Positions 1,724 to 8,620 of a DNA stretch of 21,287 bases are shown here, piece by piece. The position numbers were made by a program, and so were the translations under genes. This stretch comes from a virus. The stretch covers positions 1-21,287 of the IMG/VR virus record IMGVR_UViG_3300007609_000105; one strand, 5' to 3'. The notes under the pieces are model-generated. The model was given only the letters and a program-made list of their open reading frames with translations. It was not told where the DNA came from and searched no databases. Position 1 is the first letter of the stretch; the number at the start of each line of letters is the position of its first letter.

Positions 1724-4063
1724 ATGGCTGAAAGAATTGTAAGTCCTGGCGTATTTACACGAGAAAAAGACCTCTCATTCCTACCTGTGGGTATTGGTGA
1801 GATTGGTGCTGCTCTTATCGGGCAATCAATCAAAGGACCTGCTTTCGTTCCAACGAAGGTAGAATCGTTTAATGAATTCCAACAAAAGTTCGGTGGTCTT
1901 ACTGAAGATTCATATCTTCCGTATACTGCTCAATCTTACTTAGAAGAAGCAGGTACTGCAACTATCGTAAGAGTATTAGGACAAAGCGGATATACTGCAA
2001 AACCATTAGCATTGGTAATGTCTTCATCTCAAGGTGAGTTTGTAGGTGCAGTTCTTCATCCAACTACAACATCGAATGGTGGTGATTTTGGTAATGTTGC
2101 AACAACAGTAGGTGCTGAAGCAAGTGCATCTTCATTCATATTAACACTAAGTGGTAGTTTAGTTGATGAGCAAAGTGTATCTGCATCCCTAAACCCATCG
2201 GATGCTAATTATATCACGAAAATATTCGGATATGCACCTAAATCTTCTAAAGATGCTTACACATTCCTAAACTTCTCAACTTTCCAATCTGCATCATTTG
2301 CAACTGGTGAGATGGTATCCGCATCATTGCAGGAAGTGAATGTTGATTACACTAAAGCATACCAAGAGGCTGCAACTCCTTGGATTAAATCTCAAAAAGT
2401 TGGTGGTGTTGCTACTGATTTGATTAAATTCCATACACTATCTCACGGTAACTCTACTAACTACGAATTCAAAGTAGGTATTACTAATGTTAGACCAGCT
2501 TCAGAGGTGCCAGGTTCTGAATATGGAACATTTAGTGTAATCGTAAGAAGAGTTGATACAGCTAAGATTCCTAATTCAATCTTTGGACAAGGTGTTCAAG
2601 ATTCTGATGTTAGACCAAACATTGTAGAAGAGTTCCAAGGTGTAAACCTTGACCCTAACTCACCAAACTACATCAAGAGAGTAATTGGTGACAAATATAT
2701 TACAGTTGATGTTAATGGTAAATTGACATCTAATGGTGACTATCCTAACGCATCTGCTCATATTAGAGTAGAAGTTTCTGCTGATGTTGATAGTGGTGCT
2801 ATTGATTCAACACTTGTACCATTTGGATTTGGTGCTGTAACATCACCATTACACTCAACGTACAACCTACCTGCTCCAACTTACAATGTATCACAATCAA
2901 TTTCAAGTGAATACAACAAGAGAGCATTCTTAGGTTACTCGTTCGATTTCTCAACAACTGATAACTTGAACTTCCTACAACCACTTCCAGATGCAAATAC
3001 TGAAGAAGTTGGTTCTGACTTTGATTTGGCTGATTGTGAGTCAAATGGTTCTCCAATTGCATTATCATCTGATTTGGATGCTAAGAAATTCTTAGTACCA
3101 TTCCAAGGTGGTTTCGATGGATACGAGCCAAATAGAGTAGTAAACGTAGGTTCAGCAATTGTTGCTGGTAATAACCAAGGTTTTGATATGTCATCTGCTA
3201 CGGCAGCCGGAACGGTTGCTTATAGAAAAGCAATTGACACAGTATCAAATCCTGATGAGTTCGATATCAATATGATTGCACTTCCAGGTGTTATCAATAG
3301 ACTACACTCTTCAGTAACTACTTACGCTAAAGATATGTGTGAGGATAGATTGGATTGTTTCTATGTAATGGACGCAGGTGGTTACTCTGACTCTATTGCA
3401 ACTGTAAACAACTCACTAACTTCATTTGACTCAAACTATGTGGCTACATACCACCCTTGGGTTAAGATTTTAGATACTGACAAGAACAAGCCAGTCTGGG
3501 TACCACCAAGTGTTGTATTACCAGGTGTTATCGCATTCAATGATGCAGTAGGTGCTGAGTGGTACGCTCCCGCAGGTTTGAATCGTGGTGGTCTTCCAAA
3601 CGTAATCGAAGTCAAGACTCGATTGACTCACGCTGAAAGAGATACATTGTACGAAGGTCGTATTAACCCAATCGCTACGTTCCCTGGACAAGGTGCTACG
3701 GTATTCGGTCAGAAGACACTACAAGCTAAACCTTCAGCATTGGATAGAATCAATGTAAGAAGACTACTCATCGCAGTTAAGAAATACATCGCATCTTCAA
3801 CAAGATACTTGGTATTCGAAAACAACACGGCTGCAACGAGAAATAGATTCTTATCAATCGTAAACCCATACTTGGAGTCAATCCAACAAAGAAATGGTTT
3901 ATACGCATTTAAAGTGGTGATGGATGATACCAACAACACTCCAGATGTAATTGATAGAAACATTATGGTAGGGGAAATTTACTTACAACCAACGAAGACT
4001 GCTGAATTCATTGTACTTGACTTCAACATCCTTCCAACTGGCGCTGCATTCCCTGAGGCATAA
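1724..4063 (+). CDS. gp18: Tail sheath protein (gp18-like)
   Basis: The 779-residue contractile sheath subunit is longer than the 659 residues of T4 gp18. The N-terminus begins SPGVFTREKDLSFLPVGIGE, the typical sheath opening that follows the neighbour-linking N-terminal arm. The C-terminal 120 residues carry the conserved sheath core: a helix with RRLLIAVKKYIASSTRYLVF, then FENNTAATRNRF, then the VVMDDTNNTPDVIDRN and VGEIYLQPTKTAEFIVLDF strands. The middle (about residues 90-420) is Ser/Thr/Asn-rich and variable, and corresponds to the surface-exposed insertion domains that account for the extra length. A strong AGGAG site fixes the ATG start. It has its own upstream TATTTAT motif and is followed by the tube gene, the usual T4-like order. 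Confidence 0.97.
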   Translation: MAERIVSPGVFTREKDLSFLPVGIGEIGAALIGQSIKGPAFVPTKVESFNEFQQKFGGLTEDSYLPYTAQSYLEEAGTATIVRVLGQSGYTAKPLALVMSSSQGEFVGAVLHPTTTSNGGDFGNVATTVGAEASASSFILTLSGSLVDEQSVSASLNPSDANYITKIFGYAPKSSKDAYTFLNFSTFQSASFATGEMVSASLQEVNVDYTKAYQEAATPWIKSQKVGGVATDLIKFHTLSHGNSTNYEFKVGITNVRPASEVPGSEYGTFSVIVRRVDTAKIPNSIFGQGVQDSDVRPNIVEEFQGVNLDPNSPNYIKRVIGDKYITVDVNGKLTSNGDYPNASAHIRVEVSADVDSGAIDSTLVPFGFGAVTSPLHSTYNLPAPTYNVSQSISSEYNKRAFLGYSFDFSTTDNLNFLQPLPDANTEEVGSDFDLADCESNGSPIALSSDLDAKKFLVPFQGGFDGYEPNRVVNVGSAIVAGNNQGFDMSSATAAGTVAYRKAIDTVSNPDEFDINMIALPGVINRLHSSVTTYAKDMCEDRLDCFYVMDAGGYSDSIATVNNSLTSFDSNYVATYHPWVKILDTDKNKPVWVPPSVVLPGVIAFNDAVGAEWYAPAGLNRGGLPNVIEVKTRLTHAERDTLYEGRINPIATFPGQGATVFGQKTLQAKPSALDRINVRRLLIAVKKYIASSTRYLVFENNTAATRNRFLSIVNPYLESIQQRNGLYAFKVVMDDTNNTPDVIDRNIMVGEIYLQPTKTAEFIVLDFNILPTGAAFPEA

Positions 4064-4108: not shown

Positions 4109-4597
4109 ATGGCACAGCTATTAGACCCAAATGAAATTATGTTCACCAACTTTGAACCGAAGATGTCCAATAGGTTCATTATGTATATCGAAGGTATCCC
4201 TGCATACTTGGTGAAAACTGCTGCAAGACCTGAGATTAACAATGGTAAGGTGACTATCGACCATATCAACACACGTAGATATGTGAAAGGTCGTTCTGAA
4301 TGGCAAGATTTGTCAATTACATTGTATGATGCAATTGTACCATCTGCTGCACAAGCTACTATGGAGTGGGTAAGACTACACCACGAATCGGTAACTGGTC
4401 GTGATGGATATTCTGACTTCTACAAGAAAGACATCACATTCAATAGTTTGGGTCCTGTTGGTGATAAAGTAGAAGAGTGGACACTTAAAGGTGCATTTAT
4501 TCAATCGGCAAACTTCTCAGATATGGACTACTCTGGTGAAGACCTTGCAACGGTTGAAATGACATTAACTTACGATTACGCTATCTTACAATACTAA
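4109..4597 (+). CDS. gp19: Tail tube protein (gp19-like)
   Basis: A 162-residue protein, nearly the same length as T4 gp19 (163), which polymerises as hexameric rings into the inner tail tube. The pattern fits: N-terminal RFIMYIEGIPAYLVKTAARP, equivalent to the first beta strands and tube-lumen loop; a central RRYVKGRSEWQDLSITLYD block, matching the T4 GDRTFDDWTVTVMND region; and a C-terminal ATVEMTLTYDYAIL strand, matching the T4 ending TFEVTLALDYWE. It directly follows the sheath gene. ATG 4109 is chosen because AGGAG at 4097-4101 is well placed. A rho-independent terminator follows 36 bases after the stop, so this closes the sheath-tube unit. Confidence 0.93.
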   Translation: MAQLLDPNEIMFTNFEPKMSNRFIMYIEGIPAYLVKTAARPEINNGKVTIDHINTRRYVKGRSEWQDLSITLYDAIVPSAAQATMEWVRLHHESVTGRDGYSDFYKKDITFNSLGPVGDKVEEWTLKGAFIQSANFSDMDYSGEDLATVEMTLTYDYAILQY

Positions 4598-4968: not shown

Positions 4969-4990
4969 TCTACCTACTATAAAATAATCA

Positions 4991-5017
4991 AACCCTCACC
5001 TTTCGGTGGGGGTTTTT
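4991..5017 (+). terminator. Rho-independent terminator, same stem as 4634-4660
   Basis: AACCCTCACC (4991-5000) pairs with GGTGGGGGTT (5005-5014) across a TTTC loop, followed by a T run to 5017. The two arms are identical in sequence to those of the terminator at 4634; only the loop differs. Confidence 0.85.
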
Positions 5018-5040
5018 GTATTATAAATGTTTGGGTTACA

Positions 5041-5080: not shown

Positions 5081-5950
5081 ATGGCAGATTTACAAGATGA
5101 TTACAAGTTGTCAGATGCTGAGTTAGCTGCTCAGTTAAGACAACAACACGAAGTGAAGCAAGTAAGTGATTACAAGTTTCCAACGGAGATTATCGAACTA
5201 CCTTCACGTGGTTTGATTTATCCAAAAGACAATCCACTTTCAAGTGGTAAAGTCGAAATGAAATATATGACTGCAAAAGAAGAGGACATCCTCACTACTC
5301 AGTCTTATATCAAAGATGGTTCGGTATTAGACCGACTATTCCAATCCCTTATCATATCAAATGGTGAAGGTCAACCTATCAAATACGTTGATTTAGTAAC
5401 TGGTGATAAGAATGCAATTATGATTGCTGCACGGATTTTGGGATATGGTAAAGATTACGAAGTGGAAGTCGAAGACCCATATAGTAATAACAAACAAAAA
5501 GAAACCATCGACCTCACTCAGTTCGAAAACAACGAGTATGATGGTTCTAATCAAATAGAACCCAATAGAAACGAGTTCGAGTTCACACTACCACGTTCAG
5601 AACGTAAAATTACTTTTATGGCAATGACTGAAAGTAAAGAACGTAAGGTAAAACACCAAGTTGAAGAATTAAAGAAAGCAAATCGTAAGTTGAAAGATGC
5701 TACATCAAGAGAACTGACTACACGATTGAAAAATATGATTCTATCAGTTGATGGTGATTCAGAACAAAAAACAATTAATCATTTCGTTGATAACGAACTA
5801 TTTGCAGTAGACTCAAAGGCCCTCCGAGCATATATCAATGAAGTAATTCCTGACATCGATTTGACTTGGGAATTTGTATCGGAGGAAACCGGGGAAGGGA
5901 GAATGATGCAACTGCCGATGGACACTAGCTTTTTTTGGCCTGAGTCCTAA
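5081..5950 (+). CDS. gp26: gp26-like baseplate/tail assembly protein (T4_baseplate family), upstream part of a frameshift pair
   Basis: A 289-residue protein starting MADLQDDYKL. ATG 5081 is preferred over an ATG at 5027 because AAGGAAAG lies 3-10 bases upstream, whereas 5027 has no ribosome binding site and follows a terminator. Conserved-looking blocks are ELPSRGLIYP (residues 39-48), TAKEEDIL (64-71) and GDKNAIMIAARILGYG (108-123). I recognise these as the T4 gp26 / T4_baseplate family. A charged, helical region follows (about 190-240). The frame ends FFWPES right after a run of seven T, and an adjacent start-less frame (5907-6146) continues as if by frameshift. Position two genes before the tape measure is where tail assembly chaperones of the lambda G/GT kind are encoded. 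Baseplate hub component and tape-measure chaperone are both possible roles. Confidence 0.75.
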   Translation: MADLQDDYKLSDAELAAQLRQQHEVKQVSDYKFPTEIIELPSRGLIYPKDNPLSSGKVEMKYMTAKEEDILTTQSYIKDGSVLDRLFQSLIISNGEGQPIKYVDLVTGDKNAIMIAARILGYGKDYEVEVEDPYSNNKQKETIDLTQFENNEYDGSNQIEPNRNEFEFTLPRSERKITFMAMTESKERKVKHQVEELKKANRKLKDATSRELTTRLKNMILSVDGDSEQKTINHFVDNELFAVDSKALRAYINEVIPDIDLTWEFVSEETGEGRMMQLPMDTSFFWPES

Positions 5951-6146
5951 CTACCGACAGTATCTACACGCACACATTTTCGACTTGATTTACCACGGAA
6001 ATGGTGGTTTTACTTGGTCCGATGTTTACAATATGCCGGTTTGGGCAAGAAAGTTTTATATCAATAAGATTATCGAATTCAAACAAGAGGAGAAGAAAGC
6101 AAACGACAAAGAAGCTGCCAAAATCAAGGCAAAGACAAGAAAGTAA
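5907..6146 (+). CDS. Start-less reading frame, probable frameshift extension of gp26-like protein (gp51/GT-type)
   Basis: This frame is open from just after a stop at 5904-5906 to TAA 6144-6146. It has no usable start before its conserved-looking part; the first ATG is at 6033, in the middle of that part. From the T run it reads GLSPNYRQYLHAHIFDLIYH, then GNGGFTWSDVYNMPVWARKF and a basic, helical end rich in Lys/Glu. The aromatic FTWSDVYNMPVWARKFY block has the look of a real, constrained protein. In T4-like phages a small gp51-type protein is encoded next to gp26. Fusion after residue 285 of the upstream protein would give about 354 residues (+1) or 355 (-2). An independent 37-residue product from ATG 6033 is less likely. 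Confidence 0.7.
   Translation, partial: CNCRWTLAFFGLSPNYRQYLHAHIFDLIYHGNGGFTWSDVYNMPVWARKFYINKIIEFKQEEKKANDKEAAKIKAKTRK
5930..5936 (+). other. Putative slippery site (T7) for +1 or -2 programmed frameshift
   Basis: Seven T residues lie four codons before the stop of the gp26-like gene. In the gene frame they read AGC TTT TTT TGG. Skipping one T (+1), or slipping back two (-2) on TTT TTT, enters the frame beginning GGC at 5937, which stays open for 69 codons to TAA 6144-6146. No shift is needed only if the true run were six T or nine T, so a homopolymer sequencing error is the competing explanation. Confidence 0.55.
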
Positions 6147-6151
6147 GGAAG

Positions 6152-6174
6152 ACCCAACTTAAAGTTGGGTTTTT
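6152..6174 (+). terminator. Rho-independent terminator after the frameshift pair
   Basis: ACCCAACT (6152-6159) and AGTTGGGT (6163-6170) form a perfect eight-pair stem with a TAA loop, followed by a T run to 6174. It lies five bases after the stop at 6146 and directly before a TATTTATTAG motif. Confidence 0.8.
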
Positions 6175-6177
6175 CTA

Positions 6178-6201: not shown

Positions 6202-6432
6202 ATGAAAAGTAAGAAATTAGAAAAAATTACCGAAAGCCTTACCAAACGTGGTATGTCCGAAAGTGCTATTGGTAAATTTTTAAATTCAATTAAGATTGCT
6301 ATAAAGAAAAAGCAACTTGATAAGTTAACCAATGACCCAGAATATCAAAAGATTCTAAAAAAATACAACATTGAGCCAGTACCATATGGTAAAGACTTCT
6401 CATTAGGTGACCTAAAATCTTTTAAAAAATAA
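6202..6432 (+). CDS. Small basic protein upstream of tape measure, unknown function
   Basis: A 76-residue, strongly basic protein (about a quarter Lys), predicted mostly helical, with a C-terminal block DPEYQKILKKYNIEPVPYGK and ending DLKSFKK. No family is recognised with confidence. The start is supported by GGAG at 6193-6196 and the late-type motif just before. It sits between the probable chaperone frameshift pair and the tape measure and shares a transcript with the latter (10-base gap), so a role in tape-measure or hub assembly is a reasonable inference. There are no cysteines, membrane segment or signal peptide. Confidence 0.75.
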   Translation: MKSKKLEKITESLTKRGMSESAIGKFLNSIKIAIKKKQLDKLTNDPEYQKILKKYNIEPVPYGKDFSLGDLKSFKK

Positions 6433-6442
6433 GGTAGTATAG

Positions 6443-8620
6443 ATGGCTAATAAGGATACTCAAGATAGGATTAATGCATTAAAGCAGGAAGAGGTACTTC
6501 AGAATAATATCTCAGCCAGCCTAAGAGATGCATTAGACTTACGAACCAAACAGGGTAAGGTTGCTAAAGAATTAGCAGAATCCTTAGATTCACAAGTTGG
6601 TGTTGAGTCAAAATTAGAAGCCGTACTTGAAGCCAAGCAAAAATTATTAGAAGGTAACTTTGACTTAGAACAAGATAGGGCTGAAGAGTTACTTAAACAA
6701 TTAGAATCTTCTGAAGAATTACTAAAAACCGAAAAGAAACGTAAAGATAAGTCCCAAGAAATAAATGATTTAGCAAGTGGTCTTAAAGACTCATTATTGT
6801 CATCAGTAGGATTATCTTCTGATATGTTAAAAAATGGTATCGCTTTTGGGATAGGTATGGCAATTGCAAATAAAGCTACTGAAGCACTTACATCTGCATT
6901 TAATAATTCAGTAGGATTAGCCAAAGATTTATACCTTAATACTGGGGCAACCGCCGCAGAAGCAGGTAGACTCGCAACACAAATGTTTTCTTCTGCTGAT
7001 GCATTTAAAGCCGCACTTTTTTATGGTGATGGGTTTGCTCAGGCAGCCAAAGATGCTACTGACTATTTTGGAAGCACTCAAGTTATAACGGGTCAGATGA
7101 GAGCTACTATGGCAGAATTAAATGCATTGGGTGCAGATAATTCAACAGGTCTTGCTGGTATATTCAAGTCAGCATCAGGAAATGCTGATGATATGTTAGA
7201 CTCTATTAAAGCAATGGCACAAAAAGAAGGTGTTGCTGCGAGTGCTGTTATTGGTGAGATGTCTAAAAATCAATCTTTGATGGTTGGTAAGACTCAAGAA
7301 GAAATTATGTTATTGGCCCGAAAAACTGTTGAACTAAAAAAGCATGGTCAGTCAATGGAGATGTTAAATTCCGTTTCAGACAATATGCTAAATATAGAAG
7401 GTTCATTACGGTCTGAAATGAAAGCCAGATTGTTGACTGGTAAGGATATAAATGCACAAGCAGTTCGAGAAGCGGCATTACGTTATCAAATGACTGGTGA
7501 TGCATCTCAACTAAGTAAGGCATTAGCTGATAGTGTTGGTTCATCCGCTGAGTTTGGAAAACTTGGACCAATGCAACAAAAGGCATATGCAGATGCATAT
7601 GGTATGACAGTTGAGTCTATGACCGATATGTTGATAAAAGAAGAGGAGATGACTAAGCTTCGTTCAAAATATCCAAATATGAATACCGAAGAAATTGCTC
7701 AAATGCAGGAGAAAAAAGAAAATATGGCCGCAATGGTTGCTTCTGCCGGTAGTTTGGGTGCATCTTTATTCAAAAACGTAATACCAGCATTAGCTCAAAT
7801 GAATATGTTGAGTGGTGGTAAAATATCCAACTTATTGGGTGGTAAGGGTGGTAAGTCTCCTAAAATATCTGCTGGTGGTAAGTCTCCTGCAATGCCAAAA
7901 GGTGGTGGTAAAGGATTGGGTGGTATGACTAAGGCAATATCAGGAATTGATGCCAAGAAACTACTCGCCGGAGGAGCCGCACTCGCATTAGTTGCTGCAT
8001 CAGTATTCATATTCGCTAAAGCAGTCCAAGAGTTTATGGAAGTATCTTGGGAAGCAGTCGCTATGGCAGTTGTATCTATGTTAGCTCTTGTCGGAGCACT
8101 TGCTCTTGTTGGTGCTATTATGATGAGTGGTGTAGGTGCTGTTGCAATCCTTGCCGGAGCAGCTGCAATGTTAGTAATCGCAGCTGCATTATTAGTATTG
8201 GGTATCGCTATCCAAGAAATTGCCAAAGGGTTTGGGATGTTTGGAGAACTAACAACTCAACTAACTGCATTGGTAATGATAGCACCAGGACTTATCGCAT
8301 TGGCAGGTGTATTTGCTATATTAGGTGCATCTATGATTCCACTCGCTATGGGTCTTGCATTGATTACACCATTACTACCAACTCTAATGATTTTGGGTGT
8401 ATTCTTACCTATGATTGCTGGGGCACTTGGTATGGGTGGTGGTGATTCTGACTCAAGTGCTGGTGGTGGTCAAAAATCCGACCCACTTCTCGATGAAATT
8501 AAGGGACTCCGTAATGATATTCAATCTCAACCAATTCAGATTGTTATTGATGATAAAGTGGTTTCTACGATGAATAAGAAAAATGTAAGAATGCAGTCTT
8601 ATAGAGACCAATTGAAGTAA
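6443..8620 (+). CDS. Tail tape measure protein
   Basis: A 725-residue protein. Residues 1-115 are a charged coiled coil. Residues 130-450 are a long Ala/Met-rich helical region. A Gly/Lys linker (about 465-495, with GGKGGKSPK and GGGKGLGG) leads to a hydrophobic region of several membrane-type segments (about 507-525, 538-590, 605-662). The C-terminal block contains PLLDEIKGLRNDI and IQIVIDDKVV. This architecture is usual for tape measures, which fill the tail tube, set its length, and insert their hydrophobic part into the host membrane on ejection. It takes the place of T4 gp29. It is the largest gene after the chaperone-type locus, as expected. The start has only a weak upstream purine stretch (AAGG). 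Confidence 0.87.
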   Translation: MANKDTQDRINALKQEEVLQNNISASLRDALDLRTKQGKVAKELAESLDSQVGVESKLEAVLEAKQKLLEGNFDLEQDRAEELLKQLESSEELLKTEKKRKDKSQEINDLASGLKDSLLSSVGLSSDMLKNGIAFGIGMAIANKATEALTSAFNNSVGLAKDLYLNTGATAAEAGRLATQMFSSADAFKAALFYGDGFAQAAKDATDYFGSTQVITGQMRATMAELNALGADNSTGLAGIFKSASGNADDMLDSIKAMAQKEGVAASAVIGEMSKNQSLMVGKTQEEIMLLARKTVELKKHGQSMEMLNSVSDNMLNIEGSLRSEMKARLLTGKDINAQAVREAALRYQMTGDASQLSKALADSVGSSAEFGKLGPMQQKAYADAYGMTVESMTDMLIKEEEMTKLRSKYPNMNTEEIAQMQEKKENMAAMVASAGSLGASLFKNVIPALAQMNMLSGGKISNLLGGKGGKSPKISAGGKSPAMPKGGGKGLGGMTKAISGIDAKKLLAGGAALALVAASVFIFAKAVQEFMEVSWEAVAMAVVSMLALVGALALVGAIMMSGVGAVAILAGAAAMLVIAAALLVLGIAIQEIAKGFGMFGELTTQLTALVMIAPGLIALAGVFAILGASMIPLAMGLALITPLLPTLMILGVFLPMIAGALGMGGGDSDSSAGGGQKSDPLLDEIKGLRNDIQSQPIQIVIDDKVVSTMNKKNVRMQSYRDQLK

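Follow-up and report, generated by a model that had tools for sequence, protein, structure and literature searches.

The window, that is, the whole stretch of 21,287 nucleotides that was analysed, reads as part of the tail region of a T4-type phage. Between the genes for the tail tube and for the probable tape measure protein lies a locus of two overlapping reading frames, here called ORF1 and ORF2. The features of the region are as follows:

1724 to 4063, + strand: tail sheath protein (PF04984, 2e-17; PF17482, 5e-13)
4109 to 4597, + strand: tail tube protein, gp19-like (phrog_4542, 6e-27), upstream of ORF1
4990 to 5015, + strand: terminator-like hairpin 5' of ORF1 (pattern scan)
5022 to 5029, + strand: TATAAATG, T4-late-promoter-like, about 50 bases 5' of ORF1
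5081 to 5950, + strand: ORF1, putative short chaperone form (TAC-N, gp26-like), 289 aa, 33.4 kDa, beginning with ATG at 5081 (PF12322, phrog_150)
5907 to 6146, + strand: ORF2 in the +1 frame (TAC-C, resembling the C-terminus of gp51); the predicted post-shift reading is 5937-6146
5927 to 5929, + strand: codon AGC preceding the slip site
5930 to 5936, + strand: candidate slip site UUU UUU U(GG), at which a +1 move of tRNA-Phe is possible from either UUU
5948 to 5950, + strand: zero-frame stop TAA, end of the short form
6146 to 6176, + strand: terminator-like hairpin directly 3' of ORF2 (pattern scan)
6202 to 6432: ORF of 76 codons with no family match, separating ORF2 from the tape measure gene
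6443 to 8620, + strand: probable tape measure protein, 725 aa

The tape measure assignment relies on similarity to the annotated tape measure protein of Flavobacterium phage immuto (32% identity over 100 aa, E 1e-9). A short ORF with an ELLKSKGLDEG-like motif occupies the place equivalent to 6202-6432 in several relatives. The first-pass annotation placed the slip near the end of the first gene and directly upstream of the tape measure; the former is correct, and the latter needs to be amended for the 76-codon ORF in between. As the chaperone locus is flanked by two terminator-like hairpins and preceded by TATAAATG at 5022, it may form its own transcript. The window contains eight T4-late-promoter-like matches against 4.2 expected, and the match at 5022 is weak alone.

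In the zero frame, ORF1 ends with ATG GAC ACT AGC TTT TTT TGG CCT GAG TCC TAA. The stop codon lies four codons beyond the run of seven T (T7), as had been described from the first inspection and can be seen directly. The +1 frame is open over the whole of ORF2, and its translation begins with CNCRWTLAFFGLSPNYRQYLHAHIFDLIYHGNGGFTWSDVYNMPVWARKFYINK. The first ATG, GTG or TTG in this frame is the TTG at 5985, which lies inside the conserved piece of ORF2. The earlier view that the second frame has no usable start therefore holds for the window, but the conserved piece (FFGL..YR..LH..IFDL) begins at the T7 run itself and not, as had been thought, at FTWSDVY. The arrangement is that of a G/GT-type gene: two overlapping frames that cross near the end of ORF1, with an ORF2 that lacks its own start. 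The predicted long form has 354 aa (41.1 kDa). Its transframe peptide would be MMQLPMDTSFFGLSPNYR after a +1 shift and MMQLPMDTSFFFGLSPNYR after a -2 shift, and the short form ends with MMQLPMDTSFFWPES. On the two strands of the window, seven-base runs of T or A are rarer than expected (six seen, 18.6 expected), so that the T7 run kept at the junction stands out. The junction does not have a canonical -1 heptamer (X_XXY_YYZ with ORF2 in the -1 frame), as no U precedes UUU UUU and ORF2 is in the +1 frame. Nor does the window belong to the class known from influenza PA-X, UUU_C with a slowly read A-site codon, its site being UUU_U; UUU_C is found in the immuto-like, SP-15, LR756508 and GXN1 relatives.

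ORF1 matches PF12322, the family of T4 gp26/gp51, with 25.9 bits (curated cut-off 24.5), and its relatives in SP-15, GXN1 and LIS04 reach 86-100 bits. It also matches the baseplate hub family phrog_150 (5e-10). The two halves were modelled separately with AF2. The model of ORF1 (pLDDT 88) suggests a chaperone-like fold; its top matches in the PDB are 3klu (YqbN, Z 5.3) and 2ob9 (tail assembly chaperone of HK97, Z 4.9), both middling scores, with the next match at Z 2.7. YqbN is a relative of the phage-type tail chaperones. Among viral models, that of ORF1 matches baseplate hub subunits, including that of SP-15.

The model of ORF2 consists of three helices (pLDDT 88), and a Foldseek search of it against viral models returned nothing below E 0.001. 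A Pfam search with 82 relatives of ORF2 gave no strong match; one relative touches Phage_tail_T (0.12). Matches to phrog_634 were found for 12 of the 82 (best 2.5e-4), the window's own match being weak (0.02). The C-terminal 100 residues of T4 gp51 match the same phrog at positions that overlap those matched by the ORF2 relatives, some of which also touch a phrog named tail assembly chaperone. Alignment of the profiles with single T4 proteins using hhalign gave no match. DUF6760 is touched by 23 of the 82 sequences (alignment A3; best 8e-4) and may correspond to this piece in further contractile systems. The fold and family matches of both halves, together with the place of the locus before the tape measure gene, support a way of working like that of lambda G/GT, with binding and ratio of the products presumed by analogy.

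A first scan of viral contigs yielded 80 relatives, of which 78 reach the junction. In all 78, GGCCT comes directly after a run of exactly seven T, and the +1 frame continues into the conserved piece. Later scans, which used distant members as queries, enlarged the set to 357 loci. The frame of ORF2 was assigned with profiles of both pieces, and the junction is complete in 342 loci. For 338 of these 342, ORF2 lies in the +1 frame and overlaps the end of ORF1, a result that supports a gp26-gp51-type chaperone fusion made by a programmed shift, already proposed in the first-pass annotation, as the best reading of the locus. The alignment of related phages, named there as a check, shows that the out-of-frame junction is kept: in each of the 338 +1-type loci, the crossing has UUU in the zero frame and then U or C. 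The sites are UUU UUU UGG (275), UUU CUU UGG (35), UUU UGG CCU (17), UUU CUA UGG (4) and others (7), UUU CGU being confined to GXN1. Many of the loci are duplicate contigs or near copies; comparison of the last 50 residues leaves 162 distinct ones. In all relatives, the zero-frame stop follows at a distance of five to eight codons from the first slip codon. The geometry is common to the isolated phages SP-15, LIS04, GXN1, immuto, Mel-JY01 and RM378, and the same junction occurs in seven contigs binned with bacterial metagenome-assembled genomes (MAGs).

The locus is carried by eight MAG contigs, and five of them (L393-L395, L398 and L400) were binned with Flavobacteriales or Sphingobacteriales, which, together with the phages immuto and RM378, suggests Bacteroidota-type hosts for many members. 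In the public records of immuto, SP-15, LIS04 and Mel-JY01, the second half appears as a separate small gene, shortened or omitted; for immuto, SP-15 and Mel-JY01 it is a short separate hypothetical gene or is cut off (L083, 3339-3449; L084, 3309-3428; L082, 3345-3581).

Selection acts on both frames, and the frame under selection changes over at the T7 run. Across 105 distinct T7 windows, variation peaks at third codon positions, counted in the zero frame up to the run and in the +1 frame beyond it. Mapped on a tree of ORF1 (162 distinct sequences), the first Phe codon of the site shows two changes at its third base, against 18, 23 and 28 changes in other conserved Phe columns; a parsimony count inside the T7 group was left out as circular. 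Of the 162 sites, 148 have C or G directly 5' of the first UUU, compared with 17% at four-fold degenerate positions in the rest of ORF1. U stands there in three sites, all of them CUU UUU UGG; none of the 119 tandem UUU UUU sites has it, so that the -1 heptamer is removed. A search of the +1-type sites for a conserved RNA structure or a Shine-Dalgarno-like stimulator found neither.

Homopolymers are error-prone, and the first-pass annotation had named an assembly error at the run, with a single uninterrupted gene behind it, as the competing explanation. No result obtained here speaks for such an error, whether of assembly or of sequencing, and its probability is negligible. The seven T are identical in many independent assemblies from many samples, in isolated phage genomes and in the seven MAG contigs, and this agreement excludes it. 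Moreover, the same frame change is found at sites that are not homopolymers, and the zero-frame stop is kept at its distance of five to eight codons. The seven-base homopolymer kept in most relatives would also suit slippage of the RNA polymerase, by which some mRNAs would carry six or nine U. This is quite unlikely, as only three or four T stand in a row in 43 of the 162 distinct sites with the geometry unchanged, and longer T runs, which would favour slippage of the transcript, have not been selected.

It is also very unlikely that ORF2 is a separate gene with an internal start. An ATG, GTG or TTG does occur in the +1 open stretch in 112 of the 162 relatives, 17 of them with a Shine-Dalgarno-like stretch, and two loci (L346 and L351) carry a separate ATG for ORF2. 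However, we regard the upstream start codons as chance occurrences; 50 of the 162 relatives have none in the +1 frame, and conservation of that frame begins at the slip codons. In the window, a start at the TTG would lose the FFGL..YR..LH..IF part. The remaining alternative concerns the direction, which had been left open between +1 and -2. On T7, tRNA-Phe could re-pair two bases back and arrive in the same frame, and Mu gpGT is a known case of a -2 shift (PMC3498833). However, about 45 of the 162 distinct sites (UUU CUU, UUU CUA, UUC UUU UGG, CUU UUU UGG and UUU CGU) offer no good -2 pairing, whereas a +1 move of tRNA-Phe from UUU onto UUU or UUC is possible at all related sites. UUU UUU UGG combines both single-site versions. 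Since the related sites without a T run permit +1 only, the shift is best read as +1, and a -2 slip is improbable.

Taken together, the locus is read as a T4-type tail assembly chaperone locus with a +1 programmed shift that yields a short and a long form, to which we assign a probability of roughly 0.88. Most ribosomes would terminate at 5948 and produce the 289-aa short form. A minority would advance by one base on the T7 run: the P-site tRNA-Phe on UUU would re-pair with the UUU that overlaps it one position further on (in the relatives UUU or UUC), after which reading would go on with GGC CUG and so forth to 6146, giving the 354-aa long form. By analogy with lambda gpG, the short form may coat the tape measure protein, and the helical C-terminus of the long form may recruit tail tube subunits, as in lambda gpGT. 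A +1 slip on UUU_C has been proven by protein sequencing for influenza PA-X (PMC3498833).

Two kinds of exception bear on the site. In the loci L346 and L351, which stand near the immuto group, the site reads UUC, and ORF2 begins at an ATG of its own downstream of the stop, in a different frame; these loci serve as a natural control. In LR756511, a separate ATG for ORF2 overlaps the stop. The second kind is found in more distant T4-type phages. The gp26 loci of cyanophages, KVP40, HTVC008M, phiM12 and jumbo phages have the same gene with a Phe-Phe end and a similar overlapping C-terminal piece, but there the piece occupies the -1 frame, at a U_UUU_UUY heptamer. This reads U_UUU_UUC in P-SSM2, S-PM2, KVP40, phiW-14, Atu_ph07, fENko-Kae01, PA5oct and L356, and U_UUU_UUU in HTVC008M, phiM12 and XacN1. 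Thus, U precedes UUU UUY in 11 of 11 -1 loci, compared with none of the 119 tandem +1 loci. T4 gp26 ends with GAG UUC UUU GAG. The +1 state requires three changes on the ORF1 tree, and the direction of the shift has on this basis probably switched more than once, a less certain point given the long deep branches of the tree. We lean towards a scheme in which the direction changed repeatedly on the same Phe pair, U_UUU_UUY giving -1 and another base before UUU-Y giving +1, and in which T4 replaced the frameshift by two genes.

The locus resembles lambda G/GT, in which one gene, placed directly before that for the tape measure, gives two products by a frameshift close to its 3' end and the N-terminus is common to the short and long forms (PMC5009743). 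However, lambda shifts by -1, and the window locus by a predicted +1 on UUU-Y; at the chaperone site of most known phages, the ribosome moves one base backward, not forward. The likeness to T4 gp26/gp51 consists of PF12322, phrog_150 and the phrog_634 matches shared by the gp51 C-terminus and the ORF2 relatives. In T4, the two are separate genes on opposite strands, whereas the window has one locus with a frameshift. That the gp26/gp51 pair is the T4 counterpart of lambda G/GT, as the first-pass annotation supposed, has already been published (Vladimirov, Gautam and Davidson, Virology 2022, as cited in PMC10885494 and PMC12846349). This work is cited for T4-type chaperone genes in PMC10885494, by which some T4-like phages have separate short and long chaperone genes, and in PMC12846349, which mentions -1 poly-T signals in T4-like TAC-N genes. 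No report of a +1 shift in the T4-type group was found in the literature searched, mostly non-subscription papers, and within that scope the +1 shifting is the new element.

Outside this group, the haloarchaeal virus HSTV-2 has a chaperone shift reported as very likely +1 (PMC5009743). At the influenza A PA-X site, UCC_UUU_CGU, the P-site tRNA-Phe moves one base forward from UUU, as predicted here; the UUU_CGU of GXN1 is the same, and an influence of the preceding codon has been reported for PA-X (PMC3498833). PA-X, however, belongs to an unrelated virus and gene, and most members here have UUU_U rather than UUU_C. The locus and its relatives offer many naturally occurring sites on which to study how the direction of a shift is set by a short sequence. 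While the G-T frameshift has been described as conserved in long-tailed phages except T4 (PMC5009743), these loci indicate that T4-type phages keep frameshift arrangements, and in two directions.
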